From NCBI RefSeq assembly GCF_005144585.1, contig NZ_SSMQ01000001.1, forward strand, positions 310,001 to 374,000: a stretch of DNA of 64,000 bases, read 5' to 3'. Positions 3,253-51,857 of the stretch are shown piece after piece (the first letter of the stretch is position 1; each line of letters begins with the position of its first letter). The notes below the pieces were generated by a model. The model had not been told where the DNA came from. It worked only from the letters and a program-made list of their open reading frames with translations, and made no database searches. The DNA comes from Polyangium fumosum (GTDB lineage: Bacteria; Myxococcota_A; Polyangia; Polyangiales; Polyangiaceae). The position numbers were made by a program, and so were the translations under genes.

Positions 3253-3285
3253 GCCAAACGCCGAACCTTTGCTAGGCTCGCGCCC

Positions 3286-5237: not shown

Positions 5238-5313
5238 TCGAGGCGGATTTAGCGCTGGATCCAGCACATCCGCGCGCTTGACTCAGGCCTCTTCGAGGGG
5301 ACGCTCGCGTGCG

Positions 5314-29610: not shown

Positions 29611-30231
29611 TCAATCCTGGTTCAGCAGGGCCTTCGTGAAGGCCGCCTTGTTTTGCCAGCGCACCGCGCTCGTCTCGGTCTCGATGACCTGCATGAACAT
29701 GAAGTATTGCACGCGCCGCCCGCCGGCCGTGCGCTCGTCCGAGGTGTAGACCTTGCCGGTCATGTAGTACTTCGCGCCGAGCTGACGGCCGTACTGGGCC
29801 GCGTGGTTCGGATCGAACTGGCCGCCGTTCTGCCGCTCGACCTCGGCGATCATCTGGTTCTGCCGCTCGCGGCTCACGACCGTCACGAGCTGCGAGTTCA
29901 CCATGAACGTCTCGGCGTCGGAGAGCACCGCCTGGAGCTGGCTGTCGATGTGCTGGCTCGTCTCGTTGAGCATCGGGAAGATCGCGAGCGTCGGCTTGTC
30001 GCCCGCGTCGGCCCAGGCCTTGGCGAGGGGCGAGGCCACGAGGTGCTTCATGTTCTCGTGGAGGAGCTGCTCCATGTCGCGTTTGTCGATGCCGGTGCTC
30101 ATCGGCGGGTCGTCGAGCCCCTCGACCTCCGAGCCGCGGACGAACACGGGGTCGCTCGAGCAGCCGGCGGCGAGCGGCGCGAGCAGGAAAGCGACAGCGG
30201 GGACGAGGCGAAGGAAGGGTGCAGTTTTCAT
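29611..30231 (-). CDS. lpoB: LpoB-like penicillin-binding protein activator
   Basis: A 206-residue lipoprotein: Cys24 in the lipobox LAAGC, then a conserved LpoB-type domain (PTLAIFPMLNETSQHIDSQL, TVVSRERQNQMIAEVERQ, AQYGRQLGAKYYMTGKVY). LpoB sits in the outer membrane and reaches through the peptidoglycan to activate class A penicillin-binding proteins such as PBP1b. The linker that must span the periplasm is short here, so the PBP or wall spacing may differ from E. coli. ATG 30231 starts 17 bases after the leuS stop, placing lpoB in a leuS-lpoB-COG3014 transcript. Confidence 0.85.
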   Translation of the reverse strand: MKTAPFLRLVPAVAFLLAPLAAGCSSDPVFVRGSEVEGLDDPPMSTGIDKRDMEQLLHENMKHLVASPLAKAWADAGDKPTLAIFPMLNETSQHIDSQLQAVLSDAETFMVNSQLVTVVSRERQNQMIAEVERQNGGQFDPNHAAQYGRQLGAKYYMTGKVYTSDERTAGGRRVQYFMFMQVIETETSAVRWQNKAAFTKALLNQD

Positions 30232-30248: not shown

Positions 30249-32777
30249 TCAGGCGACGACGAGATTCACGATCTTGCCGGGTACGTAGATAAACTTCTTC
30301 AAGGTCTTGCCGGCCGTGAACGCCGAGACACCCTCGGCTGTGAGCGCGGCGTTACGGGCCTCGTCTTCGCTGGCCTTGATGGGCAGCGTCACGCGGCCGC
30401 GGACCTTGCCGTTCACTTGCACGGCCATCTCGATCACGTCGTCGACGCAGAGCGTCGGATCGAAGGTCGGCCAGGCTTCGAGCGCGATCGAACGCTCGTT
30501 GCCCCACATGCGCCAAACCTCCTCGGCCACGTGCGGCGCGAACGGCGAGACGCAGATCAAAAGACCCCGTGCAGCCTCCCGCGGCAGATCCTTCAGGGAG
30601 CCGAGGTGGTTCAGGAGGACCATCATCGCCGAGATCGCCGTGTTGAACGAGAGCGTCTCGATGTCCTCCGTGACCTTCTTGATGGTCTTGTGGACGAGGC
30701 GCTTCGTGGCGTCGTCGATGCCGTCGACGAGCTGCCGGCCCGTGAGGATCGAGAAGACGCGGTCGCGGAAGCGGACGACGCCCTGGATCTGCGCGGATTG
30801 CCAGGGTTTGACCGCTTCGAGTGGGCCCATGAACATCTCGTAGAGGCGCAGGCAATCGGCGCCGTAGCCTTTCACGATGTCGTCGGGGTTCACCACGTTG
30901 CCGGCCGATTTCGACATCTTCTCGCCGTCCTCGCCCAGGATGAGGCCCTGGTGGACGAGCTTCAGGAACGGCTCGGGGTGTTTCACCTTGCCGATGTCGA
31001 ACAGCACCTTGTGCCAGAAGCGCGCGTAAAGCAGGTGCAGCACCGCGTGCTCGTTGCCGCCGATGTAGAGGTCGACGGGCATCCAATCGTCGTAGGCCTT
31101 CTGGCTCCACGGCTCGGCGTCGTTTTTCGGATCGATGAAGCGCAGGTAGTACCAGCACGAGCCCGCCCATTGCGGCATCGTGTTCGTCTCGCGCGCGTAC
31201 CACTGCCCGTCTTTCTGGAAGAACCTCCAATCGACGGCGCGGGCGAGCGGGCCCTGCGGGTCGTCACCGGGGCGGAAATCGACGAGGTTCGGCAGGCGCA
31301 GGGGCAGCTCGCTCTCGGCGACGGCGATGGGTTTGTCGTAGCGGATCACATGCTCGTCGCCCTTGCGCGGGTCGCCGGCCGGATTCTTCATCTCGACAGG
31401 GAAGTAGACCGGGATCGGCTCGCCCCAGTACCGCTGCCGCGAAAACACCCAGTCGCGCAGCTTGTACGTGATCTTCGGCGCGCCTTTGCCCGAGGCGACG
31501 AGCGCGTCCACGATGGCGCGTTTGCCCTCGGTCGACTTGATCCCGTCGAACTTGCCGCTCCGCACGAGGACGCCCTCGTCGACGTAGGCCGCGTCGAGCG
31601 AATCGTGGAGCTTTCCATCGGGGCTCACGACCTCGATGATCGGGAGCTCGAACGCCTTGGCGAACGCGAAGTCGCGCTCGTCGTGGGCCGGGACGGCCAT
31701 GACCGCGCCCGTGCCGTAGCCGCCGATGACGTAGTCGCCGACCCAGATCGGCACGGCCTTTCCGGTGAGCGGGTGGATCGCCATCGCCCCGGTGGGCACG
31801 CCGGTCTTCGTCTTCTCCGAGGTGCGGTCGAGGTCGCTCTTGCTCGCGGCGGCCTGCACGTAGGCGCGCACCGCGTCGAGTTTTTCGGCCGACGTGATCT
31901 TCTCGACGAGCGCGTGCTCGGGCGCGAGCACGACGTAGGTACACCCGAGGAGCGTGTCGGGGCGCGTGGTGAACACGTCGATCTTCGCGCCCTCGAATCC
32001 TTGGACGTCGAACGAGATGGTCGCGCCCTCGGACCTCCCGATCCAGTTGCGCTGCGCGACGAGCGTGCCTTCGGGCCAGTCGACGAGGGCGAGGTCGTCG
32101 GCGAGGCGATCGGCGTACGCGGTGATGCGGAGCATCCACTGGCGCAGCGGGGTGCGGATCACGGGGTGATTGCCGCGTTCGCTCTTGCCGTCCTTGACCT
32201 CCTCGTTGGCGAGGACGGTGCCGAGGGCGGGGCACCAGTTGACGAGGATCTTGTCCTGGTAGGCGAGGCCGCGTTCGAAGAGCTTGACGAAGATCCACTG
32301 GGTCCAGCGGACGTAGTTCTCGTCGATCGTGCCGAACTCGCGCTCCCAGTCGTAGCTGAAGCCGAGCATCTTGAGCTGGCGCCGGAACGTGTCGATGTTC
32401 TTGCGCGTGGTCTCGGCGGGGTGGGTGCCGGTCTGGATCGCGTACTGCTCGGCGGGCAGACCGAAGGCGTCCCAGCCCATCGGATGCAGGACGTCGAACC
32501 CCTTCATGCGGCTGTAGCGGCAGAAGATGTCGGTGGCCGTGTAGCCCTCGGGGTGCCCGACGTGGAGGCCCGCGCCCGAGGGATACGGGAACATGTCGAG
32601 CACGTAACGCTTCGGCCGACCCTCGTGGCGAACGGCGCGGAAGACGCCGGTCTCCTCCCAGAAGCGCTGCCAGCGGGGCTCGGCCTCGGCGTGAACGTAA
32701 CGAGCGGGCTCCTGCGCAGCCGCAGCGCCATCCGCAGGCGTGCTCGGCGAGGGCGTGTTCGCGGTGGGGGACGTCAT
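30249..32777 (-). CDS. leuS: Leucyl-tRNA synthetase
   Basis: An 842-residue class I aminoacyl-tRNA synthetase. HVGH (72-75) is the HIGH motif and KMSKS (620-624) the second ATP-binding motif. GYTATDIFCRYSRMKGF, GMGWDAFGLPAEQYA-like sequence (HPMGWDAFGLPAEQYA) and the CP1 editing domain (TTRPDTLLGCTYVVLAPEH with the editing Asp in VPAHDERDFAFA) identify it as LeuRS. It charges tRNA-Leu in the cytoplasm. A 25-residue Thr/Ser/Pro/Ala leader precedes the conserved start. Length is normal. It is first in an operon with lpoB. Confidence 0.97.
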   Translation of the reverse strand: MTSPTANTPSPSTPADGAAAAQEPARYVHAEAEPRWQRFWEETGVFRAVRHEGRPKRYVLDMFPYPSGAGLHVGHPEGYTATDIFCRYSRMKGFDVLHPMGWDAFGLPAEQYAIQTGTHPAETTRKNIDTFRRQLKMLGFSYDWEREFGTIDENYVRWTQWIFVKLFERGLAYQDKILVNWCPALGTVLANEEVKDGKSERGNHPVIRTPLRQWMLRITAYADRLADDLALVDWPEGTLVAQRNWIGRSEGATISFDVQGFEGAKIDVFTTRPDTLLGCTYVVLAPEHALVEKITSAEKLDAVRAYVQAAASKSDLDRTSEKTKTGVPTGAMAIHPLTGKAVPIWVGDYVIGGYGTGAVMAVPAHDERDFAFAKAFELPIIEVVSPDGKLHDSLDAAYVDEGVLVRSGKFDGIKSTEGKRAIVDALVASGKGAPKITYKLRDWVFSRQRYWGEPIPVYFPVEMKNPAGDPRKGDEHVIRYDKPIAVAESELPLRLPNLVDFRPGDDPQGPLARAVDWRFFQKDGQWYARETNTMPQWAGSCWYYLRFIDPKNDAEPWSQKAYDDWMPVDLYIGGNEHAVLHLLYARFWHKVLFDIGKVKHPEPFLKLVHQGLILGEDGEKMSKSAGNVVNPDDIVKGYGADCLRLYEMFMGPLEAVKPWQSAQIQGVVRFRDRVFSILTGRQLVDGIDDATKRLVHKTIKKVTEDIETLSFNTAISAMMVLLNHLGSLKDLPREAARGLLICVSPFAPHVAEEVWRMWGNERSIALEAWPTFDPTLCVDDVIEMAVQVNGKVRGRVTLPIKASEDEARNAALTAEGVSAFTAGKTLKKFIYVPGKIVNLVVA

Positions 32778-32901: not shown

Positions 32902-34338
32902 TCAACGCGCGGGGGCCGGCGGCCGCCTCGACAACACGAGCTCCGCCGCTACCCACCGCCGCAGAAGCTCCGCGTCTTCTGCCCGCGCAAACCGCGCCTC
33001 GAACTTCGGCTGGGTCATGGCCGCCGCCAGCTCCTCCGCGTCGAGCGGCCTCTTTTTCGCGCCGTCGATCACGATGAACAACTTCCTCGCCGCCTTGTCG
33101 ACGACGAGGCACGCCCAGCCTGGCCCTTCCTCCGCGTGGACGAGCGTCCCGGCGATCACGCTGTCGAACGACGTCGACGCGCCATCGTGCACGACTCGCA
33201 TTCGCTCGCCGTCATCCGCCAGATAGGCGTGATATCGACCATCAGCGCTGAACGTCAGATCTCCCGCCCAGGCAAACGGCCTCTCCTCGCGCCCATCGAT
33301 CACCACGAATCGCGCGCCGCGGCTCGCGGCCACATAACCGAATTTCGTCCCGCGCCGCGCGAACACCGGCCGATCCACTGCGTCGTAGGCCGAGCCCTCC
33401 TCCCCATTCACGACGATGTGCCAGCCGCGCCCACGCCGCGCCGCATACGCCACGGGCCCGCTCTCGGCGCCGAAGACCAGGCTCCCGGGCGCGATTTCCT
33501 CGTACGGCGGGCCCTCCACGGCATCGAGGACGAGGACCTCTCCGTCCGCCCGACGGCCCGCATACGCCACGTGCGCGCCGCCTTTGCTGAAGAGCACCTC
33601 CGAGATACGAGCATAAGGCGCGGATTCGATTCCATCGACCGTCACGCGCCATTGCCCATTGCGCTTCGCCACGTAGGCATGACGCCCTCCGCGCGGCCCG
33701 AGTGCATGGTGCGCGATCGCCTCCGCAGGCGGCGATTCACGCCCGTTCATCCAGAAAAACGCCTCCTCGCCGCGCCGCCCCACGTGCGCCACAGCGGCCC
33801 CGTCCTCGCTGAATCGTAAGGCGCCGATGCCGTCGTAGCGTGGTCCGGGGACGCCGTCGACGACCGCGCGCACGGAGCCTCCGGTTTTCCCCACATAAGC
33901 GAAACGCCCACCCTGCCCGAAGAGCATCGTGCCCTCCAGAATGGCATCGAAGGCGGGCCCGGGTGTTTCATCCAGCACCACGAACCACACGCCTCTTCGG
34001 TGCGCGGCATACGCCACGTGCGCGCCGTCCGCGCTCAGGACGACCTCGCCCACGCCGTCGAACGTCGGGCCTGCGCGGCCGTCCACCACGAGCGACCAGC
34101 CTTTTTCGCGGCGCGCGGGGTAGGCGAGGCGGCGGCCGTCCGCGCTCCAGACGAGGGATTCGATTCCGATGCCCAGATATGCGGCCCCGTCCACGCCGTC
34201 GACGCGCACCCGCTGCTTGCCGGCGCTCTCCAGCACCTCGATGTGATGGCTTCGATCGGGGCTATGGCCCAGCCAAACCACGGAAGGCCCGCAGCCCGCC
34301 GAAACGAGCAAGGCGAGCCCGAGGAAACGCGCCTTCAT
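32902..34338 (-). CDS. Lipoprotein with beta-propeller-like repeats
   Basis: A 478-residue lipoprotein: MKARFLGLALLVSAGC places the lipid anchor at Cys16. The body consists of about eight 45-50-residue repeats, each with a strand of the type GRRLAYPARREKGWSLVVDG followed by a GPxFDGV turn and LVWSADG. This resembles TolB/WD40-like (PD40) beta-propeller units. The last 60 residues are a charged helical tail. ATG 34338 lies inside the stop of the dehydratase gene (ATGA), so this lipoprotein is translationally coupled to the fatty acid/polyketide-like cluster and may be its envelope-located partner. That functional link is inference. Confidence 0.75.
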   Translation of the reverse strand: MKARFLGLALLVSAGCGPSVVWLGHSPDRSHHIEVLESAGKQRVRVDGVDGAAYLGIGIESLVWSADGRRLAYPARREKGWSLVVDGRAGPTFDGVGEVVLSADGAHVAYAAHRRGVWFVVLDETPGPAFDAILEGTMLFGQGGRFAYVGKTGGSVRAVVDGVPGPRYDGIGALRFSEDGAAVAHVGRRGEEAFFWMNGRESPPAEAIAHHALGPRGGRHAYVAKRNGQWRVTVDGIESAPYARISEVLFSKGGAHVAYAGRRADGEVLVLDAVEGPPYEEIAPGSLVFGAESGPVAYAARRGRGWHIVVNGEEGSAYDAVDRPVFARRGTKFGYVAASRGARFVVIDGREERPFAWAGDLTFSADGRYHAYLADDGERMRVVHDGASTSFDSVIAGTLVHAEEGPGWACLVVDKAARKLFIVIDGAKKRPLDAEELAAAMTQPKFEARFARAEDAELLRRWVAAELVLSRRPPAPAR

Positions 34339-34949
34339 CCGAAGATTGGCGCTGGCAGCGGCGGGATGCTGCGCGTGCTGGTCATCACGCCCTTCGCCAC
34401 CGTGCGCCCCTCCACGCGGGCCTCGACCTCGTACCGCGCGAGGTTTTCCATGAGATGCGATTGCGCGACGATGTACTCGATCCGCTGCCCGGCGAAGACC
34501 GGCTGGAGCAGCTTCACGTCCACCGACGCGCTCATTCCGACGTGCAGATGGGAATGCGACTTCAGCGATTCGACGAGCGCCGCCGAGACCTCGGGCTTGT
34601 ATCCCGGTTGCAGGCGATATCCGAGCGCCAGGTTTTGCAGGGCTTCGATCACCTCGTTCGGATCGTGCCCCTTCGCCTCCCAGGCATCCTGGTAGGCGGC
34701 GACGATGCCGAGCAGGTTCGAGCTCTGGCCGAGCCCCTCGATCGTGTACACGCCGGGCCAGAGGTGCAGGCCCGGAAAATGGCCCTCGAACACGGGCTCG
34801 TTCGCGGATACGTGGCGCGCGGCGCGCAGGGTCGGCCGAGGTCCGCGCTCGTACGATTCGATCACGTCGACCATCGAGAAGGGGCGACGATGCGGAATCA
34901 GGAGGTTGATGACGTCCGCGCCGAGGGACAACCGGGAGCTCGTTTTCAT
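34335..34949 (-). CDS. FabZ-like 3-hydroxyacyl-ACP dehydratase
   Basis: A 204-residue hot-dog-fold protein. IPHRRPFSMVDVI, NEPVFEGHFPG with the catalytic His57 and PGVYTIEGLGQ with the catalytic Glu71 match FabZ. It should remove water from a 3-hydroxyacyl-ACP to give a trans-2-enoyl chain. It is longer than housekeeping FabZ (about 150), with an extra loop (about 85-120) and a longer C-terminus, so substrate specificity may differ. ATG 34949 overlaps the stop of the acyltransferase gene (ATGA), and its own stop overlaps the following lipoprotein start. GTG 34961 is an alternative start. Confidence 0.85.
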   Translation of the reverse strand: MKTSSRLSLGADVINLLIPHRRPFSMVDVIESYERGPRPTLRAARHVSANEPVFEGHFPGLHLWPGVYTIEGLGQSSNLLGIVAAYQDAWEAKGHDPNEVIEALQNLALGYRLQPGYKPEVSAALVESLKSHSHLHVGMSASVDVKLLQPVFAGQRIEYIVAQSHLMENLARYEVEARVEGRTVAKGVMTSTRSIPPLPAPIFG

Positions 34950-35911
34950 GAGAGGCTCCACCGCAGCGCGTCCACGGTGCGCTGCATGTCATTCGCGTTT
35001 TCGGTCGCGTGGACCCGCGCTTCGGTGCCGAGGTTCGTCCGGACGAGCGATCGCAGCACCGCGCCCGGGGCCATGGTCACGAAATCCGTCACGCCCTCGT
35101 CCTTGAGCGTGGCCATGACGTCGGTCCAGCGAACGGTATGGACGAGCTGGCCGGCGAGGAGGCGCGGGACGAGCGCCTCCTCCTCGGCGCGTTTTCCCGT
35201 TGCATTGAGCACCATGGGGACTTGCATGGTCCCCCGACGCGCGAGCTTGAGCGCCGCTTCGAGCTCGGGGACGGCATCTTTCATGGATTCGCTGTGCCAG
35301 GCGCCGGAGACAGGCAACCGTCGCGCGTGGCGCCAGAGGTCGATACCGAGCGCATCACCGAGGGTACGGATCATGCTGCGGATGGCGTTCTCATCGCCGC
35401 TCAACACCACTTCCCCGGGCGCATTCGATGCGGCCACGTGGATTCCGGGCCGCGTGGCCGCGCGCTGGAGCGTCCCCTTGAGGAAGACCTCCGAACGCTC
35501 TGTCGAAGGTTCGGAGAACACGAACATGGCTCCCGGGTGCCGCTCTGCTTCCCGCGCCATCAGCCGCCCACGCAGCGCCGCGATCGCAATCGCATCCTCG
35601 GGCGTGATGGCGCCCGTCGCCGCCCAGGCCGGGAGCTCTCCGAGCGAATGACCTGCCACGACGTCGGGCTTGATTCCCGCGGCGAGAAGCTCCGCGTGCA
35701 CGAAGAGCGCGACCGCCGTGAGCACCGGTTGCTGGATTTCCGTACGTTCGAGCGCGCGCCCGCCCTTCACCAGGAGTTCGCTCGGCGCGAAGTCGGCCGC
35801 CGCCGCCGCCCGTTCGAGCATTTCCTTGCCCCGCGGCGCGCTCTCCGCGAATTGCACGGCCGCGACGAGCCCTTTCGCACCCTGCCCGGGAAACAGAAAC
35901 GCGACGGTCAC
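34946..35911 (-). CDS. FabD-like malonyl-CoA:ACP acyltransferase
   Basis: A 321-residue acyltransferase. FLFPGQGAK opens the fold, AGHSLGE carries the nucleophile Ser89, and SGAWHSESM provides His206. QQPVLTAVALF is typical of the family. It should load an extender acyl group, most likely malonyl, onto the ACP encoded in the same cluster. The specificity residue region reads AWHS rather than the common AFHS, so the extender is not certain. GTG 35911 overlaps the reductase stop by four bases. A dedicated acyltransferase is unusual in classical type II polyketide clusters, which borrow FabD from primary metabolism. Confidence 0.88.
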   Translation of the reverse strand: MTVAFLFPGQGAKGLVAAVQFAESAPRGKEMLERAAAAADFAPSELLVKGGRALERTEIQQPVLTAVALFVHAELLAAGIKPDVVAGHSLGELPAWAATGAITPEDAIAIAALRGRLMAREAERHPGAMFVFSEPSTERSEVFLKGTLQRAATRPGIHVAASNAPGEVVLSGDENAIRSMIRTLGDALGIDLWRHARRLPVSGAWHSESMKDAVPELEAALKLARRGTMQVPMVLNATGKRAEEEALVPRLLAGQLVHTVRWTDVMATLKDEGVTDFVTMAPGAVLRSLVRTNLGTEARVHATENANDMQRTVDALRWSLS

Positions 35912-36657
35912 AACGTGAGTCCCCCGTCCACCACGAGCGCCTGCCCGATCACGTACGACGCCTCGTCCGAGGCCAGAAACAAGACAGCCCGCGCGACCTC
36001 GTCGCCGGTCCCGAAGCGCCCGAGCGGAATCTGCGCGCGCGCCTTCTCTGCGATCCGTTTGTCCAGGCGCTTCGCCATTCCCGTGCCGAGCAGCCCCGGC
36101 ACCACGGCGTTGACCCGGATCCCGCGCGGGGCGAGCTCGGCCGCGAGCGTGCGCGTGAACGCGAGGATCGCGCCCTTCGAGGCGGCGTAATTCGATTGCC
36201 CCGGGCTCGCGTGCTGGCCCGCGACCGAGGCGACGTTGACGATGGCGCCCCGCCGCTTCGCCATCATCGGCCGCACCACCGCGCGGCAGCCGTGAAAGGC
36301 GCCGCCCGCATTGACGCGCATCACCTCGTCCCAGCTCTCCTCGGCCATGAGCGGGAAGAGCTCATCCGCCGCAACGCCGGCATTGTTCACGAGCACGTCG
36401 ATCGCGCCCCGCGCGACGAGCACCTGTTCCACGGCCGCGTTCATGGACGCCGCGCTCGCGACGTCCATCACGAGCAATGCACCGCGCCCGCCCGCCTCTT
36501 CCAACGCTCGGAGCGTCTCCTTCGCCTCGTCCTCGCGCGTCCGGTATCCGACGAAGACAAACGCCCCCTCGGCGCCGAACGCCGTTGCAATGCTCCGGCC
36601 GAGCCCGCGTGAGGCGCCGGTCACGATCACCGTGCTGTCGTCGAATCGAGCACTCAT
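35908..36657 (-). CDS. FabG-like 3-oxoacyl-ACP reductase (SDR)
   Basis: A 249-residue short-chain dehydrogenase. TGASRGLG (13-20) binds NAD(P)H, NNAG is present, and the catalytic set is Asn116, Ser144, Tyr157 and Lys161 (YAASK). The C-terminus PGLLGTGM and VIGQALVVDGGLTL follows the FabG pattern. It should reduce a 3-oxoacyl-ACP made by the ketosynthase upstream. Arg in the loop after the first strand (VGYRTRED) favours NADPH. ATG 36657 overlaps the preceding stop (ATGA). Confidence 0.9.
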   Translation of the reverse strand: MSARFDDSTVIVTGASRGLGRSIATAFGAEGAFVFVGYRTREDEAKETLRALEEAGGRGALLVMDVASAASMNAAVEQVLVARGAIDVLVNNAGVAADELFPLMAEESWDEVMRVNAGGAFHGCRAVVRPMMAKRRGAIVNVASVAGQHASPGQSNYAASKGAILAFTRTLAAELAPRGIRVNAVVPGLLGTGMAKRLDKRIAEKARAQIPLGRFGTGDEVARAVLFLASDEASYVIGQALVVDGGLTL

Positions 36658-37703
36658 AAAGGCAACACGAACGGCGGCAGCTTGGATTCGTCTCGCGTCC
36701 GGTAGCTATGCCGCTGGGGGCTCACGTACAGGCTGCGGTTGTTGAGGAGCGGCGCCGAGAGGGTGCGAATCGGCCGGCGCTCGCCCGCGTGACGGGCCTC
36801 GTACCGATCGATGCCGGCGTACGCATACGGTCGATCGAGGAGCAAAAGCACAACCCATTCGCCGCGGATCACGGAAAAGCCGGACACGAGGACATGCCCG
36901 ATCCGTTGATCGTCCAGAAACACCTCGTCCCCCTCGGCCACGGGTGCGCCGGCGACGGCCCATACGACCCGCGCCGTCGCGTTCGCCTCGCGCCGGGCCT
37001 GCAGCGCGGCAGATCCCACGTAGTCCTTGCGGTACGAGACGCGCCATTGCAGGCCGAGCTCCAGCGGCGAGAGGCCGGCGCGTCCCTCGCGGCGAATGTT
37101 GAAGAAGCCATTTTCGAGCGCGCATTGATCCAGCGCGGACAGGCTCGCGAGGGCGAGGTCGAACGCCGCCCCCTCCCGGAGGAGCGCCTCGCGCACGGTC
37201 GCGACCTCGTCCGTGGGAATCAGCAAATCATACCCAAACTCGCCGGTCTTGCCCGACCGAAAAAACACGGCGTCGTCGGTGCGGTAAAACGCGAGATACG
37301 GAAGGCTCCCGACGTCGGGCCCAAACACGGTCGTGCAGAGCTCCCAGGCATAAGGCCCGTGGAGCGAGAGGAGCGTCCCGTTGCATCGCTCGACCGTCAC
37401 CACGACGCCCGCGGGAAAACGTTTCTCCAGGAACGCGACGAGCTCCTCGGGCGACGGCCCCTCGGCAAGCAAAAAGAACGATTCGTCGTCCCGGGCCACG
37501 TGAATGTCCGCGAACGGTCGGGCCTCCTCGTCGAGCAAGAGGCTCGGGCGCATCTGACCATCCTGCAAGAAAAGATCACAGGCGACGACGTAGTCGAGCG
37601 CTTCGTACGCGCCTTCGCCCTCGATGCGCAGGCACGTGATGTGATCACCTTTGGCGAGCGCCACGCTCGTGCGCAAGGCGCGGATCTCGTCATCCATCGA
37701 CAT
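36654..37703 (-). CDS. GcvT-like (aminomethyltransferase fold) protein in fatty acid cluster
   Basis: A 349-residue protein of the GcvT/YgfZ folate-binding type. The stretch SGKTGEFGYDLLIPTDE matches the GYTGEDGFEI-type motif, and LSALDQCALENGFFNIRREG plus LSPLELGLQWRVSYRKDYVG matches the middle of GcvT. The C-terminal beta-barrel (about 250-345) is present. Real GcvT moves a methylene group from lipoyl-bound aminomethyl to tetrahydrofolate; family members also demethylate methoxy or N-methyl compounds or act without folate. Its place between ACP and reductase genes suggests a C1 or methyl step on the chain, or a structural role. ATG 37703 overlaps the ACP stop by 14 bases; ATG 37697 is an alternative. 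Confidence 0.75.
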   Translation of the reverse strand: MSMDDEIRALRTSVALAKGDHITCLRIEGEGAYEALDYVVACDLFLQDGQMRPSLLLDEEARPFADIHVARDDESFFLLAEGPSPEELVAFLEKRFPAGVVVTVERCNGTLLSLHGPYAWELCTTVFGPDVGSLPYLAFYRTDDAVFFRSGKTGEFGYDLLIPTDEVATVREALLREGAAFDLALASLSALDQCALENGFFNIRREGRAGLSPLELGLQWRVSYRKDYVGSAALQARREANATARVVWAVAGAPVAEGDEVFLDDQRIGHVLVSGFSVIRGEWVVLLLLDRPYAYAGIDRYEARHAGERRPIRTLSAPLLNNRSLYVSPQRHSYRTRDESKLPPFVLPL

Positions 37704-37992
37704 CGTCCGTCCTCCCGTGGGCGAGGGCCAGGTCGACCAGCGTATTGACGGTGCGCATGGCCGGTCGTGACAAACCCTCGTGTGGCAGCCTCACGCCGAG
37801 CTCGGATTCCATGCTGACCAGGAGCTCGACCGCGTCCACCGAATCCAGGCCGAGCCCCGTGCCAAAGAGCGGCGCGTCGGGGTCGATCTCGTCGGGCGCG
37901 CGGCTCACGTGCAGGCGCTCAACGAGGAGCGTGCGCACCTTGTCGAGGATACGCTCGCGACGCTGGATGTACCGGGCAAGCTCGGGGTTCAT
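37690..37992 (-). CDS. Acyl carrier protein
   Basis: A 100-residue acyl carrier protein. The phosphopantetheine attachment motif is GLDSVDAVEL with Ser51. It is longer than AcpP, with an Arg-rich first helix (MNPELARYIQRRERILDKV) that makes the start basic, while the region after residue 35 is acidic as usual. It carries the growing chain for the enzymes encoded around it and needs a phosphopantetheinyl transferase, which is not in the window. ATG 37992 overlaps the ketosynthase stop (ATGA). Confidence 0.9.
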   Translation of the reverse strand: MNPELARYIQRRERILDKVRTLLVERLHVSRAPDEIDPDAPLFGTGLGLDSVDAVELLVSMESELGVRLPHEGLSRPAMRTVNTLVDLALAHGRTDDVDG

Positions 37993-40049
37993 GCGGCTCC
38001 TTTTCGGCTGAAGACCACGGCGGCCGCGGCGGTGCCGCCCACATCGGGGACCAGCACGTGCTCCCAGGTCCCTCGCAAAATCGAGGCGACGGCGAACGCG
38101 CAGGCGAACATCGCCTCGGCTGCGGGCGCGGGGCCGAGGACGGGCGTGACGTTTGGCGCCACGACAACGTCGCTCGCGTCGAGCCCGGCCATTCGAATTG
38201 CGAGGCGCGTGGCCTCCTCCACGTCGCCCGGGCCGGCGAGGCCGAATCCCGAGAGACGCACGGCTTTGGATGTGTCCGGGGCCGGACCCTTGCCGAGCAC
38301 GAGGCACGCCGCCCCTTCTCCCTCGTGCGCCTCGGATTCGAGGGAGACGCGCTCGTCGACGCCGGCGGCGAGGATCAGGTCGACGTCGGATCGCGTCGAG
38401 AGGTGCAAGGCCGCATAAATGAGCGCGACGAGGCCGCTGCCGTCGCCCGTGGTGAGCGTCGTGGTCGGGCCCTTGAGCGCGCAGAGCTTCGTGCAAGTCC
38501 CCGCGGACGCATTGAGGACCATCCGCGTGAACGCCGTGGCCGAGAGGCGCGCGAGGCCACGCTCGCGAATGCTGTCCCTGAATTCACGCTCGCTTTCGGT
38601 CGATGCGCGTGTCGTGCCGACGAAAAGCCCCGCCCGGTCGCGTTTTACGCCGCGCAGCGTGATCCCCGCGTCGGCGAGGGCGAGCGCCGCGGCGGCCGAG
38701 AGATACCGCGACGCAGGATCCATCCCGCGCCCGTCCGCCGTGGGAATGAGGCTCTCGATGCGGAAGGCGGGCGCGCGTCGGCGGAGCGGGACCTTCGCGG
38801 CGAGCGCCTCCCCAAGCGCGTCGAGATCCATCCCGTGCGGCCCCACGGCGGAGGCGCCGAGGACCAGCCATTCGGCGGGGGTTTTTCCGGCCGAAACGTG
38901 CGGTGCTTTGCCCACGATGACGGCAGCATTCGCGCCTCCAAATGCCGAGTTGTTGCAAAGCGCGCGCTCGACGCGGGCCACGCGAGGCCGGTCGCCGGCC
39001 ACCGGATCGGGCGGAGAGCGCGGCCGCGCTTTGTCGTAATGCAGGGTGGGAGGAATCTTGCCCTGCTCCATGCCGCAGAGGGTCGCGATGAGCTCGAGCA
39101 CGCCCGCGGCGCCCTGCGCGTGACCGAGAAAGCTCTTCGTGGAGCTCACGGGCAAACGCGCCACGCGCTCGCCGAAGACCTGTTCGAGCGCGCGGAACTC
39201 GGCGGCGTCGTTGGTCATCGTGCCCGTGCCATGCGCATTGAAGTAATCGATCCTGTCAGCCTCCATCCCCGCATCGAGCAGCGCGCCGCGCAGCGCCCGC
39301 GCGACGCCGGCGCCCGTGGGATCGGGCGTGGTCGGATGGTAGGCGTCGGCCGAAAGACCATACCCGAGCACCGTCGCGAGCACCTGCGCGCCGCGGGCGC
39401 GGGCGGTATCGCCGCGTTCGAGCACCAGAAAACCCGCGCCCTCGCCAAGCGTGGTCCCCACGGGCTCGCTGAACGGCGCGCATTTCGAGAGACAAAGCAG
39501 CCCGAGCGCGTGAAAACCGGCAAAAATCTCCGGCGTGAGCTCGTCCGTGCCGCCGGCAAGGGCTATGTCGCAGAGCCCCGCTTCGAGCAGATCCCGGCCG
39601 AGCCCGATGGCATTCGTCGAGGAGGAGCAGGCCGTCGAAAGGGTGAGCGTCGGGCCCTCGATGCCGAGGGCGCGCGCGACCTCCGCTGCGACGCGGTGCA
39701 GGCCGTCCACGTGCATGCCGAGGCTCGTGCCGAGGATCAGGGCGACACGCCGCCCCGCGACGCCGCCCGGCCCGATCTGCAAGGCTGCATGCGCGAGAGC
39801 TTCGCGCGCGGCGGCCGTGGCGAATTCGACGCAACGATCCCCGGTTCCTGCGCCGGGCACCATCCCGCCGAGCGACACGGAAAAACCTTCGGTCGAGAAT
39901 CGCTCGATCGGGCGAATCCCATCGCGGCCCTCCTCGATGGCGGACCACAAGGCGGACGTACTTTCGCCGAGCGCCGAGACGGCGCCCATTCCCGTGATGG
40001 CAATCGGAGAGCCCGATTCCGGGGGTTCGGCGGTCGGTCGCTGGAGCAT
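37989..40049 (-). CDS. Single-chain KS-CLF-like beta-ketoacyl synthase fusion
   Basis: A 686-residue protein made of two thiolase-fold halves. Residues about 15-380 are an active ketosynthase with the Cys-His-His triad: Cys141 (STACSSST), His273 (NAHGTGT) and His310 (KSFLGH, with Lys305). Residues about 393-686 are a shorter ketosynthase-like half in which the Cys position reads TTGDGSG (Asp536) and no HGTGT motif is present. This is the arrangement of KS-alpha and KS-beta (chain length factor) of type II polyketide or aryl polyene systems, but in one chain. It should catalyse decarboxylative Claisen condensation on the ACP, with the second half shaping chain length. ATG 40049 is 14 bases after the preceding stop. 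Confidence 0.85.
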   Translation of the reverse strand: MLQRPTAEPPESGSPIAITGMGAVSALGESTSALWSAIEEGRDGIRPIERFSTEGFSVSLGGMVPGAGTGDRCVEFATAAAREALAHAALQIGPGGVAGRRVALILGTSLGMHVDGLHRVAAEVARALGIEGPTLTLSTACSSSTNAIGLGRDLLEAGLCDIALAGGTDELTPEIFAGFHALGLLCLSKCAPFSEPVGTTLGEGAGFLVLERGDTARARGAQVLATVLGYGLSADAYHPTTPDPTGAGVARALRGALLDAGMEADRIDYFNAHGTGTMTNDAAEFRALEQVFGERVARLPVSSTKSFLGHAQGAAGVLELIATLCGMEQGKIPPTLHYDKARPRSPPDPVAGDRPRVARVERALCNNSAFGGANAAVIVGKAPHVSAGKTPAEWLVLGASAVGPHGMDLDALGEALAAKVPLRRRAPAFRIESLIPTADGRGMDPASRYLSAAAALALADAGITLRGVKRDRAGLFVGTTRASTESEREFRDSIRERGLARLSATAFTRMVLNASAGTCTKLCALKGPTTTLTTGDGSGLVALIYAALHLSTRSDVDLILAAGVDERVSLESEAHEGEGAACLVLGKGPAPDTSKAVRLSGFGLAGPGDVEEATRLAIRMAGLDASDVVVAPNVTPVLGPAPAAEAMFACAFAVASILRGTWEHVLVPDVGGTAAAAVVFSRKGAA

Positions 40050-40063
40050 GTAGCGGGGCGAGA

Positions 40064-41056
40064 TCAGTCCTCGGTCGCCCGGAGGACCGCGCCGACGATG
40101 AGCGTGATGAGCCCTGCAATGCCGAGGATCGCGCCGATGGTCACCGCGAAGACGCCGCCGCCGGACGCGAAGATGCCGCCGATCACCATGGCGAGCACGC
40201 CGACGCCGAGGAGAATGCCGCCCACCGCGAGCACCGTGTTGCTGCGGCCATGCGGGTTCGCAGCGGGAGGGCCCTGCTGCGCGCCGTCATTCGCGGTCGC
40301 GCCCGTGCTGGCCACGTTCCAGCGCCGCGCGTGGGCCTCGGTGCGCTCCCGGAGCTGGAAAAATGCCTCCTCGCCCATTTGCGCGACGAGGCGGCGCTCG
40401 AAGTCGGCGACCGTCACCGGCCGAGCCGCCACTTTGTTCACCTTCGTCACGTATTCGTCGATGAGCAGCGGCGTCGATTGTTTCATGCGGGCGCACGCCT
40501 CGACCGCGATCGAGCGCAAATGCAGCCGCCGCTCCATCGAGATCCCGGCCCTGGCCGCGTCCTCGTCGATCGCCTCGACGATCCGCATCCCGAGCCCCGG
40601 ATCCTTGCGCATCCGGAGGCCGATGTCCGCGCGTTCGGTGGGCGTCAAAGCTTCGAGCTCGCTCGTCATGCCGAGCATCGCTTCGTCCATCTCGTCCATC
40701 CCATTCCACATGCGCGCTTGCATGCCGGGATGTGCGCGCCCCTCTTCGGGAAGATCGTTGAACGAGCCCACGAGGAGGAGCGAGCGGAGCGTCTTGCGGA
40801 CGAGCAGGTCCTGCTTCTGAACCTTCGAATCCGTAGCATCGAGCTTCGGGAAGAGCGACGTGATGGGGCTGTCGCCGGTCTTCAGCGAATCGAGACCCCT
40901 ATCGAGGCGCGCGAGAAACCGATCCATTTCCTCGGGGCTGACCAGCGTCACCGGCGACGCCGCCGCGCCCGTCGTGCCCACGCAACCCACGCTGCCTGCC
41001 GCCGCGGTCCCCGCCCCACCGATCACGCCGACCTTCAAAAAATCACGTCGTTCCAT
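40064..41056 (-). CDS. Tat-signal membrane protein of unknown function
   Basis: A 330-residue protein beginning MERRDFLKVGVIGGAGTAAA, a twin-arginine signal; a Cys at about residue 25 (GSVGC) could be lipidated. The middle (about 40-240) is helical and charged, with KTGDSPITSLFPKLDATDSK and several EARR-type helices. The last 60 residues hold two Gly/Val/Ile-rich membrane spans. I do not recognise a family. It lies 14 bases before the ketosynthase gene and probably belongs to the same transcript, so it might be the membrane component of the pathway. Tat export suggests folding in the cytoplasm before export. Confidence 0.6.
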   Translation of the reverse strand: MERRDFLKVGVIGGAGTAAAGSVGCVGTTGAAASPVTLVSPEEMDRFLARLDRGLDSLKTGDSPITSLFPKLDATDSKVQKQDLLVRKTLRSLLLVGSFNDLPEEGRAHPGMQARMWNGMDEMDEAMLGMTSELEALTPTERADIGLRMRKDPGLGMRIVEAIDEDAARAGISMERRLHLRSIAVEACARMKQSTPLLIDEYVTKVNKVAARPVTVADFERRLVAQMGEEAFFQLRERTEAHARRWNVASTGATANDGAQQGPPAANPHGRSNTVLAVGGILLGVGVLAMVIGGIFASGGGVFAVTIGAILGIAGLITLIVGAVLRATED

Positions 41057-41121: not shown

Positions 41122-44100
41122 TCAAGCCGTGCCCGGTGACGCAGCGAGCCATGCCGCCGCGAGCTCCAGCGTGCGGGCGTTGTCCGGAACGGCACGCAAG
41201 AATCGCTCCCGCCGCGACGGATCGCCGATCTTCTCGGCCCGGCCGAGGAGATGCGCGCGCGCGGCGGAGAGCGCTTCCTTCGCGCGCGCGTGCTCGCCGT
41301 TCGCGTGGAGCGCCTCGGCATACACGAGCCGCACGAGCGGCTCGTCCGAGAGGAGCGCGCCGATCTGTTCGAGGAGCTGTTTGCCCTCCTCCGCCGCCGA
41401 GAGCGCCTCCGCAGGGCGGCCACACGCGAGCAGCACACGCGCCAGCGTCGCGAGGTACGAGCAGCGGCGGTTCGGGGGCGCATCGACGAGCGCCACGGCC
41501 TCGATCGCAGCGCGCTCGGCGGCCTCGCTGTCGCCCTGCCGCACGAGCACGAGCGCGAGGAACTGCCGCACGTCGTGCGCCGAGAGCACGAGGCCAGCGT
41601 TCGTGAGCGTCTCCAGGATGTCTTCGAGCAGCGCGCGCGCCTCCGCGAGCGCCCCGCGCGCCGCGAGCGCCTCCGCGAGCCCATGCCGTGCGCTCGCCGC
41701 GAGCATCGGCAAGCACTGCGCCTCGGCGCGCGCGACGAGCGTGGCGAGCCCCTCCTCGGCGCGGGCATGATCGCCGAGGTCGCAGAGCACGAGCGCCGCG
41801 TAGATGCGCATCGAGATGCCGAAGCGATCGACCTTCGCCTCCTCGAAGCACTGCGCGGCTTCGAGGAAAAATTCGTACGAGGGTTCGAGGTCGCCCTCGA
41901 CGAGCGCGCGCGTCGCCGAGACGGCCGCCCACTCGGCCCGCACGATGGGCTCGCGCCGCGCTTCCTCGGGCGCCTGCGTGAACCGCTCGGTGAGCGTCTC
42001 GGCCGCTTTCCGTTGCCCGGAGCGCAGGAGCATGCGCGCGATCCAGCCCATCGCCGCGAGCCTGCGCGTGAACGGCGAGGCCTCACGATCGGCGCGCTCG
42101 AGCATCGACTCCGCGATCCCGAGGAGCTGGCGGCGCTCGCCGCGCGAGCTCTCGGCCCACGCCGCCGCGCTCGCCGCGCCGAACCAGAGCGGGCTGTCGG
42201 GCGAAAGATGCTGCATCGCCTCGCGCGCCCGCCGCGCCGCCTCCGCGAGCTCGCCGCGGTAGAAATGCGCCTCGGCCTGCGCTTGCCGTACCTCGCCGAG
42301 CAGCCCGCCGTCCGCGCCGCACGCCTCGGCGCGCTCGCTGCGTTCGAGCACCGCCTCGAAGTCGTTCGCGCTGAGGGCCTGCGTCGCCGCGCGCACGAAC
42401 CACACCGCGGCTTTCTCGCGATCCTCGCCGCGCTCGCAGTGCTCGGCGAGGGCCATCGCGTCGCGCTCGCCCGCGGTCTCGAGCCACTCCGCCGCGAGCC
42501 GGTGGCCGAGCGCTCGATCGACCTCCGTGAGCGCCGCATAGGCGACCTCGCGCAGGAGGTCGTGCCGGAACGCGAGCTCCTCCTCGCCGGGAAAACGGCT
42601 CTCGCGGCGACGCATGAGGAGCTCGCGGTGGACGAGCGTCTCGATCCAGCGGCCTGCGTCGACGACGCTGCTCTCGCCGCCGAGGAGCGCGCGCACGCCG
42701 CCGCTCCAGAACGTTTCGCCGAAGATGCTGCCCGCGCGGAGCAGCCAGCGCGCCTCGCTCGGCAGCGCTTCGAGCCGCGCCTGCAGCATGGCGAGCACCG
42801 TCTTCGGCAGCGCGGTCTCCTGGCCCTCGGCCACCGCGCGCAAAAGCTCTTCGAGGTAAAACGGGTTGCCCGCGGCCTGCGCCACGACACGCGTGAGCAA
42901 GGACGGCGGCGCCTCATCGCCGAGCACGTGCCGTGCGAGCCGCTCGCTCGCGCGCCGCGACAGCTCGCCGAGCCGGATCTCCTGCATGCCGCGGTCCGCC
43001 CAGAGCCCCGGGAACCTGTCGTGCACGTCGGGCCGCGCGAGCGCGAGGACGAAGAGCGAGCGTTCGCGCGACACACGGAGCGCCGCGTCGATGAGCTGCA
43101 CCGTCGGCGTGTCGGCCCAGTGCAGATCCTCGAGCACCAGCACCACCGGCCGGGTCGCGCTCGCCGCGCTCACGAAGTCCTCAAAACCGCGGCGGATCTG
43201 ATCCCCCATCAGCACGGGATCTTTTCGCGCCGCGCGCAGGAACGTGCTCGCCTCCTCGGCCGCCCACGGCGCGCCCACGAGCTCGCCGTAGAGCTCCATG
43301 ACGCGCCCCGCGTCCGCGCCAAGGTGCCGCGTCACCGCGCCGCGGATCTTCTCCCGCCGCACCTCGATCGGATCCTCCTCGTGCAGCGACGAGGCCCGCC
43401 GCAAGAGCTCGCCGGCCATGCCGAAGGGCGCGCCCGTGCGCGTCGGATCCCCCTGCGCGAGCCAGATATCGGGGCGAGGCTCGGACTCGGCGAGCTTCTG
43501 CAAGAGCTCATGCCGGATGCGCGACTTTCCGATGCCGGCCACACCCGTCACGAGCACCGCGCGCCCCGCGGGCTCACTCACGCACTCCTCGTAGAGCGCG
43601 AGCAACGTCGAGAGCTCACGCTCGCGGCCTACGCACGGCGTCACCCGCCCGAGCAAGAGCCGCGATCCTTCCTGCGCTTGCGCCTCCCCGAGGAGCGACC
43701 GCACCTCCTCGCTCCCGTCGATCACGAAGCGCCCTTCGAGCAGCTCCGCCGTCAGCTCGTCGAGCCGCACCGGCCGCCGCGCCCCGCTCTCCGAATCGTC
43801 GCGTTTCGCCGTGCACTGCTCCTCCTCGCGCAAGAGCTTTGCCGCGCGATCGATGCCTTCTCCGACGGGCAGCGCGTGCGAGATCACCCCTCGTCCCGTC
43901 ACGAGCACCATGGGCGCCTCCGGCACCATCGCCTGCAGCGCGAGCGCGCACCGCGCGGCTTGGGTCGCCTGGTCCGTCGCCATGCCCGCGCCCGAGAGCA
44001 CGAGCGCCGCCGACCCGTCCACCAGCGCCTCCACGCGCGCCCCGTACGATCGCGCCACCGCGCGCAGCGCCGCGAGCGGCGCGATGCCGGCCGAGTCCAT

Positions 44101-45063
44101 CGTGCCGCCCAGCGGATCGACGGGCAGGCCCTCCTTCGGCGCCGAGAGCAGGATCACGCTCACGAGGCGCTGCTCGCCGCTGCCGAGCGCGCCCTTCGAT
44201 CGCAGCGTATGCGGCGGCTCGCTCGTGTACTCGTCGTTCGCCACCCGCGCGAGCGCGCCCATCACCGCGTCGCCGTCCGCGAGCCTTTCTTCCGGCTGCT
44301 TCGCGACCATCCGCGCGATGAGCAGGTCGAGCGCGAGCGGCACGCCGGGCCGAAGTGCCGAGACCTTCGGCACGTCCTCGAAGAGCACCTTCGCCAGCAC
44401 CGCCACCACGTGTTGCCCGGTGAACGCAGGTTTTCCTGCGAGGCTCTCGAAGAGCACGCAGCCGAGGGCGAACACGTCGGCGCGCGCGTTCACCGCGCGA
44501 TCTCCGCGCGCTTGCTCGGGCGCCACGTAGCCGGGCGTCCCCATGAACACGCCCGTCCTCGTCACGACGTGCGGGTCCGAGGCGCGCCGCGCGATCCCGA
44601 AGTCGAGCAGCATCGCGCGCCGCACGTCCCCGTCGCGCAGGAAGATGTTGCTCGGCTTGATGTCGCGGTGGACGATCCCGTGCCGGTGCGCGATCGCGAG
44701 CGCGCCTGCGATGCGCTCGGCGAGCGCCATCGTCTCCTCGACGCTCAGCCGCTCCCGCATGATGCGCGTGTCGAGGCCCTCGCCCGAGAGCCACTCCATC
44801 ACGAGGTACGGCTCGCCGGAGTCGAGATTGCCGTAGCCGAGGTAACGCACGATGGCCGGGTGCGAGAGCGCTGCGAGCACACGCGCCTCGCGATCGAACC
44901 GCGCGCGCTCCTCGACGCTCGCGCCGTTCATGATCTTGATCGCGACCTTATCGCCGGTCTCGCGATCGCGGGCCTCGAAGACGGCGCCCATGCCGCCTTG
45001 GCCTGCGAGACGTACGAGCTCGAAGCGCTCGCCAACCGACACACCTACCCGCATCTCCAACAT
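41122..45063 (-). CDS. Ser/Thr protein kinase with cyclase-like, ATPase and TPR regions
   Basis: A 1313-residue multidomain signalling protein. Residues about 14-275 are a Hanks-type kinase with GQGGMG (21-26), Lys43, HRDIKPSN (Asp134) and DFG (154-156), so it should be active. Residues about 298-450 look like a class III nucleotide cyclase domain that has lost its metal-binding Asp residues. A STAND/AAA-type ATPase follows, with Walker A GVAGIGKS (507-514) and Walker B VVLVLEDLHWAD. The C-terminal half (about 800-1313) is an array of TPR-like helices ending in a motif shared with a second kinase (FLRAVPDNARTLELAAAWLA). No transmembrane span is visible. ATG 45063 or 45054 may be used. It is upstream of the fatty-acid-like cluster on the same strand. 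Confidence 0.88.
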   Translation of the reverse strand: MLEMRVGVSVGERFELVRLAGQGGMGAVFEARDRETGDKVAIKIMNGASVEERARFDREARVLAALSHPAIVRYLGYGNLDSGEPYLVMEWLSGEGLDTRIMRERLSVEETMALAERIAGALAIAHRHGIVHRDIKPSNIFLRDGDVRRAMLLDFGIARRASDPHVVTRTGVFMGTPGYVAPEQARGDRAVNARADVFALGCVLFESLAGKPAFTGQHVVAVLAKVLFEDVPKVSALRPGVPLALDLLIARMVAKQPEERLADGDAVMGALARVANDEYTSEPPHTLRSKGALGSGEQRLVSVILLSAPKEGLPVDPLGGTMDSAGIAPLAALRAVARSYGARVEALVDGSAALVLSGAGMATDQATQAARCALALQAMVPEAPMVLVTGRGVISHALPVGEGIDRAAKLLREEEQCTAKRDDSESGARRPVRLDELTAELLEGRFVIDGSEEVRSLLGEAQAQEGSRLLLGRVTPCVGRERELSTLLALYEECVSEPAGRAVLVTGVAGIGKSRIRHELLQKLAESEPRPDIWLAQGDPTRTGAPFGMAGELLRRASSLHEEDPIEVRREKIRGAVTRHLGADAGRVMELYGELVGAPWAAEEASTFLRAARKDPVLMGDQIRRGFEDFVSAASATRPVVLVLEDLHWADTPTVQLIDAALRVSRERSLFVLALARPDVHDRFPGLWADRGMQEIRLGELSRRASERLARHVLGDEAPPSLLTRVVAQAAGNPFYLEELLRAVAEGQETALPKTVLAMLQARLEALPSEARWLLRAGSIFGETFWSGGVRALLGGESSVVDAGRWIETLVHRELLMRRRESRFPGEEELAFRHDLLREVAYAALTEVDRALGHRLAAEWLETAGERDAMALAEHCERGEDREKAAVWFVRAATQALSANDFEAVLERSERAEACGADGGLLGEVRQAQAEAHFYRGELAEAARRAREAMQHLSPDSPLWFGAASAAAWAESSRGERRQLLGIAESMLERADREASPFTRRLAAMGWIARMLLRSGQRKAAETLTERFTQAPEEARREPIVRAEWAAVSATRALVEGDLEPSYEFFLEAAQCFEEAKVDRFGISMRIYAALVLCDLGDHARAEEGLATLVARAEAQCLPMLAASARHGLAEALAARGALAEARALLEDILETLTNAGLVLSAHDVRQFLALVLVRQGDSEAAERAAIEAVALVDAPPNRRCSYLATLARVLLACGRPAEALSAAEEGKQLLEQIGALLSDEPLVRLVYAEALHANGEHARAKEALSAARAHLLGRAEKIGDPSRRERFLRAVPDNARTLELAAAWLAASPGTA

Positions 45064-45159
45064 TGTCGCACGTCACGCGTGGACTCCAAGAAGGCAGTTC
45101 GGCTGCGCTGCTTCTTTCCCGGTCTTTCGCGACCGGTTATCTTGCGCGCTCTTTTCCCC

Positions 45160-47954: not shown

Positions 47955-51857
<3,903 letters not shown>

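Follow-up and report, generated by a model that had tools for sequence, protein, structure and literature searches.

An acyl carrier protein paired with a T-protein relative in a type II fatty acid/polyketide synthase-like gene cluster of Polyangium fumosum

Fatty acid and polyketide pathways are known to take one-carbon units from S-adenosylmethionine (SAM), and aryl polyene clusters combine a ketosynthase (KS), a chain length factor (CLF), a ketoreductase (KR), a dehydratase (DH) and an acyl carrier protein (ACP) without an enoyl reductase (ER). In the glycine cleavage system, a model has been presented in which the lipoyl arm of the H-protein is inserted into the T-protein, GcvT (PMC7733448). 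In the type II fatty acid synthesis (FASII) cluster of anammox bacteria, the SAM-dependent methyltransferase AmxMT1 binds ACP in a pull-down, and alpha-carbon methylation of ACP-bound beta-ketoacyl was proposed from structure, docking and pull-down (PMC9821293). Here we describe a cluster of eight tightly spaced minus-strand genes at positions 32902–41056 of a 64,000-nt window, the whole stretch of DNA analysed, from the 13 Mb genome of Polyangium fumosum; all positions below are those of the window. In order, the genes encode a twin-arginine translocation (Tat)-signal protein, a KS-CLF fusion, an ACP, a GcvT-like protein, a KR, an acyltransferase (AT), a DH and a propeller-type lipoprotein. 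The most constant element of this set is the pair formed by the ACP and the GcvT-like protein. We lean, somewhat beyond an even chance, towards a type II fatty acid synthase (FAS)/polyketide synthase (PKS)-like pathway in which the T-protein relative would act on the chain bound to the ACP, possibly through a one-carbon transfer that depends on folate.

The ACP gene (37690–37992, minus strand; 100 aa; PF00550, 9.9e-11; phosphopantetheine site GLDSVD) and the gene of the GcvT-like protein (36654–37703, minus strand; 349 aa; PF01571, 4.6e-31), a member of an ACP-linked subfamily, overlap by 14 nt. The other overlaps between adjacent cluster frames are of 4 nt, and the sole spacer, of 14 nt, separates the Tat gene from the KS-CLF gene. 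Open reading frame (ORF) coordinates and Pfam/NCBIfam matches bear out the strand, extent, gene content and tight spacing given by an earlier sequence-only reading of this DNA, which had counted nine consecutive genes where we count eight and had overlooked the ACP-GcvT pair. We compared 53 loci after removal of duplicates, taking into account the genes that share a strand with the GcvT-like gene and lie no further than 9 kb from it; many of these loci are cut by contig ends, and absences are accordingly upper bounds. ACP accompanies the GcvT-like gene in 52 of the 53, and the lone locus without it has its start 205 nt away from the end of a contig. KR is present in 38 loci, a KS-CLF-like protein in 37, the Tat protein in 36, AT in 34, DH in 32 and the propeller protein in 20; all eight genes occur together in 15, and KR, AT and DH together in 25.

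The two genes are also close in space. With duplicates included, 44 of 56 GcvT-like matches lie within 150 nt of the ACP stop; the other 12 comprise four fusions, two matches at contig ends and six with an over-long frame that hides the junction. In the four fusion loci (L124, L127, L130 and L148), PF00550 and PF01571 are found in one polypeptide. Conversely, a profile built from the cluster ACPs found none at 22 other GcvT-domain loci (0/22), a control made up of weaker phylum-scan matches, ordinary GcvT and five others, several of them mutually orthologous and some represented by short stretches. L211, a family member outside the training set, has the ACP, with a 4-nt overlap. Scores against the GcvT-like profile are disjoint, ordinary GcvT reaching 143–177 bits versus at least 254 bits for the family. 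Gene adjacency and the ACP-GcvT fusions strongly support, at the level of sequence, a change of partner from the lipoyl H-protein to ACP.

An AlphaFold2 (AF2) model of the GcvT-like protein, with a predicted local distance difference test score (pLDDT) of 96.8, has the T-protein fold. Its best structural match is the T. maritima T-protein (1wos/1woo; Z 37.3, 2.0–2.1 Å over 321–322 residues, 23% identity, VIA-align), and further matches are dimethylglycine dehydrogenase (Z 36.0), dimethylsulfoniopropionate (DMSP) demethylase (Z 32.4) and YgfZ (Z 24.6). The protein falls below the NCBIfam cut-offs for GcvT (TIGR00528, 64.5 versus 235.85 bits; NF001567, 87.9 versus 300 bits), and its family does not carry the canonical GYTGE plus GLGARD pattern. 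In the family alignments Asp66 never varies (54 of 54 rows, among which one contig appears twice, and 34 of 34 rows). It aligns with a position occupied by Asp in 1pj5 and by Ala in 3gsi, a GcvT-family oxidase titled D552A, and residue counting in the alignment equates it with T. maritima Asp96, presumably the key Asp of the T-protein. We had considered whether the catalytic Asp is missing, which is ruled out since residue counting places an Asp at position 66. A C-terminal S-L-x-V segment (NRSLxV in the Polyangium protein) is specific to the family, with Ser invariant in 34/34 rows; N-R precedes it in most rows, those of families f26 and f40 being exceptions. Compared with described GcvT proteins (e.g. 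1WOO/1WOS and 3A8I), the protein has the same fold, the kept Asp and a place beside a swinging-arm carrier protein. It differs from them in its sequence (the 23% identity above), its ACP neighbour or fusion, changed positions, a C-terminal segment of its own and a separate score group. The family is, by all appearances, one that keeps the T-protein core and key acid with a re-tooled pocket.

The enzymes around the pair are those of a type II FAS/PKS of the KS-CLF type. In the fusion protein (37989–40049, minus strand; 686 aa; PF00109/PF02801), the KS has Cys141, His273 and His310, residues that do not vary among the KS-CLF fusions compared (26 of 26). The CLF half is shortened and KS-like, with a match to the KS fold (3.5e-13); across the 26 fusions it has neither a conserved Cys nor a conserved Gln at that site. 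An active KS is thus joined to a KS-like partner without the active Cys, and the ACP is a discrete protein whose PF00550 phosphopantetheine site contains the LDS motif. Type II KS-CLF synthases (6KXD, which we take to be the ishigamide KS-CLF; actinorhodin, 1TQY) likewise have a Cys-His-His KS with a Cys-less partner, ACP, KR, DH and AT. The present set differs in joining both halves in one polypeptide with a shortened CLF half, and in its extra GcvT-like, Tat and propeller proteins. For both KS-CLF halves the best match in the Protein Data Bank (PDB) is the KS pair 9S5H; we found no paper on 9S5H/9S5I. The AT (34946–35911, minus strand; PF00698) is FabD-type, with GHSLGE and GAWHS motifs, and scores 163 bits against TIGR00128, below the cut-off of 260.9. 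The FabZ-type DH (34335–34949, minus strand; PF07977) has His57 in HFPG and Glu71, both kept in 8/8 sequences, and an LWPGVYT motif that is typical of its family, together with a weak, sub-threshold match to the FlK thioesterase. The KR (35908–36657, minus strand) is of the FabG type by Pfam/NCBIfam. Loading, condensation, ketoreduction and dehydration are thereby covered in Polyangium, as the sequence-only reading had held for elongation, keto-reduction and dehydration, and a Pfam/NCBIfam scan of the eight cluster proteins detected neither a KSIII nor a megasynthase, in line with the same reading.

In the pathway that we favour, the AT would load malonyl onto the cluster's own ACP, as its motifs suggest. 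The KS-CLF fusion would then elongate the chain, and KR and DH would convert beta-keto to enoyl. As the set contains no clear ER, the chain would be left unsaturated. A polyene product is plausible from the gene content, and it may be kept on the ACP or delivered to the envelope, as the sequence-only reading expected. The cavity of the GcvT-like protein most likely takes up the phosphopantetheine arm of the ACP, a proposal that follows from insertion of the lipoyl arm into the T-protein (PMC7733448). More speculatively, the GcvT-like protein may modify the bound chain, perhaps in a one-carbon transfer with folate as donor or acceptor; for an ACP-bound beta-ketoacyl as the target of such an enzyme, AmxMT1 offers a precedent (PMC9821293). 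In a tentative idea that we rate well short of even, T-protein relatives partnered with ACP would form an undescribed class of carrier-protein enzyme that shuttles one-carbon units between folate and the growing acyl chain, for example in an alpha-methylenation of beta-ketoacyl-ACP. Handling of the product or its partners on the outer face of the inner membrane would fall to the Tat-signal protein and the propeller lipoprotein. The anammox ladderane system resembles this cluster in being a FASII cluster with an unusual one-carbon enzyme, whereas there a SAM methyltransferase and radical SAM enzymes are present and here a folate-type fold (PMC9821293).

A literature search, with subscription papers outside its reach, found, among the papers listed, none that links GcvT or the T-protein to an ACP, to a ketosynthase, to a chain length factor or to type II polyketides, and likewise no paper on an aminomethyltransferase with folate and ACP; within that reach, the earlier statement that no described pathway has this set stands. 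The genes suggest a product that has yet to be described, and possibly one-carbon chemistry that is new as well. If the proposal is true, the action of a folate-type T-protein on ACP would represent a tailoring step of a new type. Even without folate use, an ACP-bound GcvT relative would be a surprising partner change. The widespread and sometimes fused pair provides a handle for finding an undescribed lipid or pigment family, and it offers a test of the move of the T-protein fold from the lipoyl to the phosphopantetheine arm.

Several observations pull against the proposed pathway. First, the Tyr of GYTGE is replaced by Lys/Arg in 31 of 34 family rows and the Arg of GLGAR by Leu in 23 of 34, both residues being invariant in five ordinary GcvTs, so that folate affinity may be altered or lost. 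The comparison rows came from 12 loci in which ordinary GcvT was sought (8 open frames, 2 of them matching the profile), supplemented with L137, L138 and L161. Second, at least one of KR, AT and DH is absent from the examined stretch in 28 of 53 loci, partly owing to contig ends. The reductive cycle is therefore not universal and not the defining feature of the family; the full elongation, keto-reduction and dehydration set named by the sequence-only reading stands for Polyangium and not as a family hallmark. Third, the f26 loci (L132–L136 and L211) have the ACP-GcvT pair without a KS of this family in the examined stretch, and are a minimal form of the pair. Fourth, the top Pfam model for the KR is PF13561, which is named enoyl-ACP reductase. 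We read the enzyme as a KR because NCBIfam ranks 3-oxoacyl-ACP reductase first (TIGR01830, 5.8e-81, 272 bits, below the cut-off of 297.75) and because it passes the cut-off of the FabG subfamily NF009466 (244 versus 222 bits). On this evidence an ER role is disfavoured, in keeping with the earlier report of no ER, despite the name of that Pfam model. Lastly, the GcvT profile with which the loci were picked had been made from cluster members, so the family boundary is partly our own, and many sister loci come from metagenome bins, in which some contigs may be misbinned (e.g. L092, in a bin labelled Nealsonbacteria). The score gap and the 0/22 control make the choice of profile an unlikely cause of the ACP link.

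The replaced positions also bear on a different role, in which the GcvT-like protein has no one-carbon chemistry and acts on acyl-ACP as a hydrolase, a cyclase or a gatekeeper of the pantetheine arm. The new, near-invariant S-L-x-V segment fits such a role, as does the lack of any thioesterase among the eight Polyangium genes in Pfam, the FlK match of the DH being weak and sub-threshold. Set against this, the key Asp never varies, and the closest folds are those of folate-binding T-proteins. Moreover, among the f26 loci, thioesterase-like N-termini lie downstream of the ACP-GcvT pair in L133, L134 and L135, confirmed in L134 as 4HBT/4HBT_2 (Pfam), and L134 keeps its GcvT-like gene despite the adjoining thioesterase. 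We consider this loss of one-carbon chemistry unlikely, though worth keeping in view.

The FAS II enzyme types, and a KR close to FabG, could also be those of a housekeeping fatty acid synthase operon that has been duplicated. A tree of 44 KS sequences, however, contains a branch that places all 26 cluster KS to one side, away from 11 FabF-like housekeeping rows (support 94/86; found in 92% of 200 bootstrap trees), and the branch reaches 97/93 when the KS of a Pseudomonadota locus is included. This tree omits the fragment L185 and contains no type I PKS KS, as L001–L008 failed the length filter. In the KR tree, five housekeeping FabG form one clade (100/99) and all 43 KR rows from cluster loci fall outside it; two of the seven FabG loci, L187 and L188 (Polyangium), were left out. 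The genome also has a separate fab locus with FabH-, FabD-, FabG-, ACP- and FabF-like genes (named by similarity and order). Two points temper the separation: the ultrafast bootstrap (UFBoot) value of 94 for the KS group is just below the usual 95, and the 43 cluster KR rows are not one clade, leaving a single KR origin unsupported. The KS grouping and the separate fab locus support a dedicated type II FAS/PKS-like operon that would be distinct from housekeeping FAS, and make a duplicated housekeeping operon very improbable.

We also weighed a cluster for a polyene lipid, of the aryl polyene kind or another, that would supply the envelope with a polyene acyl chain and use the GcvT-like protein only as an accessory or scaffold. 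Like aryl polyene clusters, the present one mixes KS, CLF, KR, DH and ACP, here with an AT, without a clear ER. Its NCBIfam matches for ACP and KS, all below cut-off, include families that we take to be of the aryl polyene type. FAD-dependent enzymes of the amine-oxidase family, which presumably includes phytoene-desaturase-like enzymes, occur in sister loci: by Pfam in L119, alongside an AMP ligase, and beside the GcvT-like gene in L149, and by N-terminal sequence only in L146, L147, L150 and L151. What sets the cluster apart from aryl polyene clusters is the GcvT-like core. In addition, the ApeP-type dehydratase PF22817 has no match in the cluster (Pfam), and no exporter, LolA or glycosyl-/acyltransferase was found among the few neighbours scanned (two kinases and TPR-like, LpoB and RsgA proteins), a scan that does not include some other ORFs, among them a permease-like one on the plus strand at ~45.1–46.1 kb. 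Among the NCBIfam KS models listed FabF scores highest, every one being below cut-off. The ACP-GcvT pair furthermore persists in L119, L125, L126 and L130, loci whose examined stretches showed no KR, AT or DH. We regard a polyene cluster with an accessory GcvT-like protein as rather improbable. As to other described pathways, the PfaA-type megasynthase of polyunsaturated fatty acid (PUFA) synthesis is not matched (TIGR02813, 76 bits for the KS and 83 bits for the AT, against a cut-off of 1010.1), and the ladderane hallmarks, radical SAM and SAM-methyltransferase, are absent from the eight genes, wider neighbours having been scanned in part. The hallmark families tested for the aryl polyene, PUFA and ladderane readings were thus not found in the cluster and its partly scanned neighbours.

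Returning to the pathway with an ACP-partnered T-protein relative, comparison of gene order across myxobacterial genomes, as the sequence-only reading had proposed, showed that all six Polyangium genomes examined share the eight genes and their order; the nearest named relatives in the scanned collection are Polyangium strains (DH identity 94–96%). Two genomes of another family (G036 and G026) have all eight genes at 26–55% protein identity, with the first five in the same order, followed by DH and propeller; the AT has moved, lying directly after the propeller gene in G036 and ~3.5 kb further in G026. The ratio of nonsynonymous to synonymous substitution (dN/dS) against five Polyangium relatives is 0.06–0.44 for each of the eight genes, which places all of them under purifying selection. 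The low dN/dS, the invariant KS triad and the kept DH residues indicate that the cluster genes are maintained and not decaying. Chance co-location is ruled out by the conserved order, dN/dS, the locus counts and the ordinary-GcvT control.

The cluster occurs, rearranged or trimmed, in many other Myxococcota. At E <= 1e-30 the GcvT-like profile matches 40 of 317 genomes of the class and 48 of 377 genomes of the phylum, two samples that overlap. Matches at ~1e-31 to 1e-36 are ordinary GcvT by neighbourhood, two in the class and twelve in the phylum, which leaves 38 and 36; the 38 include G198, G201 and G213 (E <= 3.5e-108), counted by profile score without neighbourhood. Outside Myxococcota, the sample of Pseudomonadota (the phylum of the Afipia locus) yielded the ACP-GcvT pair in 1 of 299 genomes (L170, G875). 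There the ACP lies 29 nt upstream of the GcvT-like gene, with DH, KR and KS genes around; two KS-like proteins are encoded, one of 852 aa with two KS stretches. The second GcvT match in this sample was rejected as ordinary GcvT.

The chemistry around the pair apparently differs between sister loci while the pair itself stays. Of the four loci without KR, AT and DH in the examined stretch, three carry other enzymes instead: L119 those named above, and L125 and L126 a ferredoxin joined to a ferritin/FA-desaturase-2-like (diiron) part. Divergent ACP-GcvT-KR-AT runs are seen in the f40 loci L154–L158 and L160, and L154 contains, in addition, fragments of a KS, a second KR and, slightly below cut-off, a match to an ApeP-like dehydratase.

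The envelope-type proteins at both ends of the cluster, reported by the sequence-only reading, are conserved. The Tat-signal protein (40064–41056, minus strand; 330 aa; signal RRDFLK, lipobox-like Cys25) matches no Pfam family. It is predicted to be all-helical with a hydrophobic C-terminal helix pair, at low to moderate confidence (AF2, pLDDT 63), and Foldseek returned no match in the PDB at E <= 0.001. The twin arginine (RR) is kept in 8/8 rows picked without regard to it; 19 further rows were selected for having RR. In 22 of these 27 rows a Cys follows 8–36 residues after RR. Less favourable to a Tat assignment, 4 of 30 Tat-type matches of at least 55 bits have no RR under the start-codon rule, and the wider alignment is biased, its rows having been chosen for RR. 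In L146, a tandem pair of Tat-signal proteins (2713–5474), the first with PDZ domains (Pfam), lies beside the ACP-GcvT locus. At the other end, the lipoprotein with repeated propeller-type stretches (32902–34338, minus strand) has a lipoprotein-like start and a sub-threshold match to TmcD of the Tmc complex (NF045725, 83 bits). Its likeness to that complex is of the repeat type; the score is far below the cut-off of 440, and no other Tmc subunit was seen among the scanned proteins.

The cluster is flanked by leuS (30249–32777, minus strand; named from its sequence) and, 65 nt upstream, by a Ser/Thr kinase gene (41122–45063, minus strand). A promoter scan of the cluster gave 0 sites, and terminator-like sites number 7 against a shuffled mean of 4.4 (standard deviation 2.2), near the shuffled level; the transcript ends are therefore not defined. 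Directly downstream of leuS, as in L041, L042 and L043, lies a gene for an LpoB-type peptidoglycan-synthase activator lipoprotein (29611–30231). The upstream kinase (1313 aa), which contains TPR-like repeats, and a second one at 47955–51857 (1300 aa, minus strand) are long Ser/Thr kinases with AAA ATPase parts; a further kinase paralogue of ~40% identity is found nearby in L039 and L040. Divergent from the kinase gene, on the plus strand at ~45100–46065, is a ~300-aa permease-like protein, presumably of the EamA/DMT type, and the same neighbour is present in L039 and L041. Elsewhere in the same genome, L047 (7566–14219, G000:C77) encodes nitroreductase-type, KR and KS-like proteins and a FabA-like dehydratase, and resembles a type II PKS/aryl polyene-like cluster. 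L046 (6373–12150, G000:C125) is a third KS/ACP set, encoding on one strand two long KS-like proteins, an ACP and a pair of proteins that match no Pfam family.

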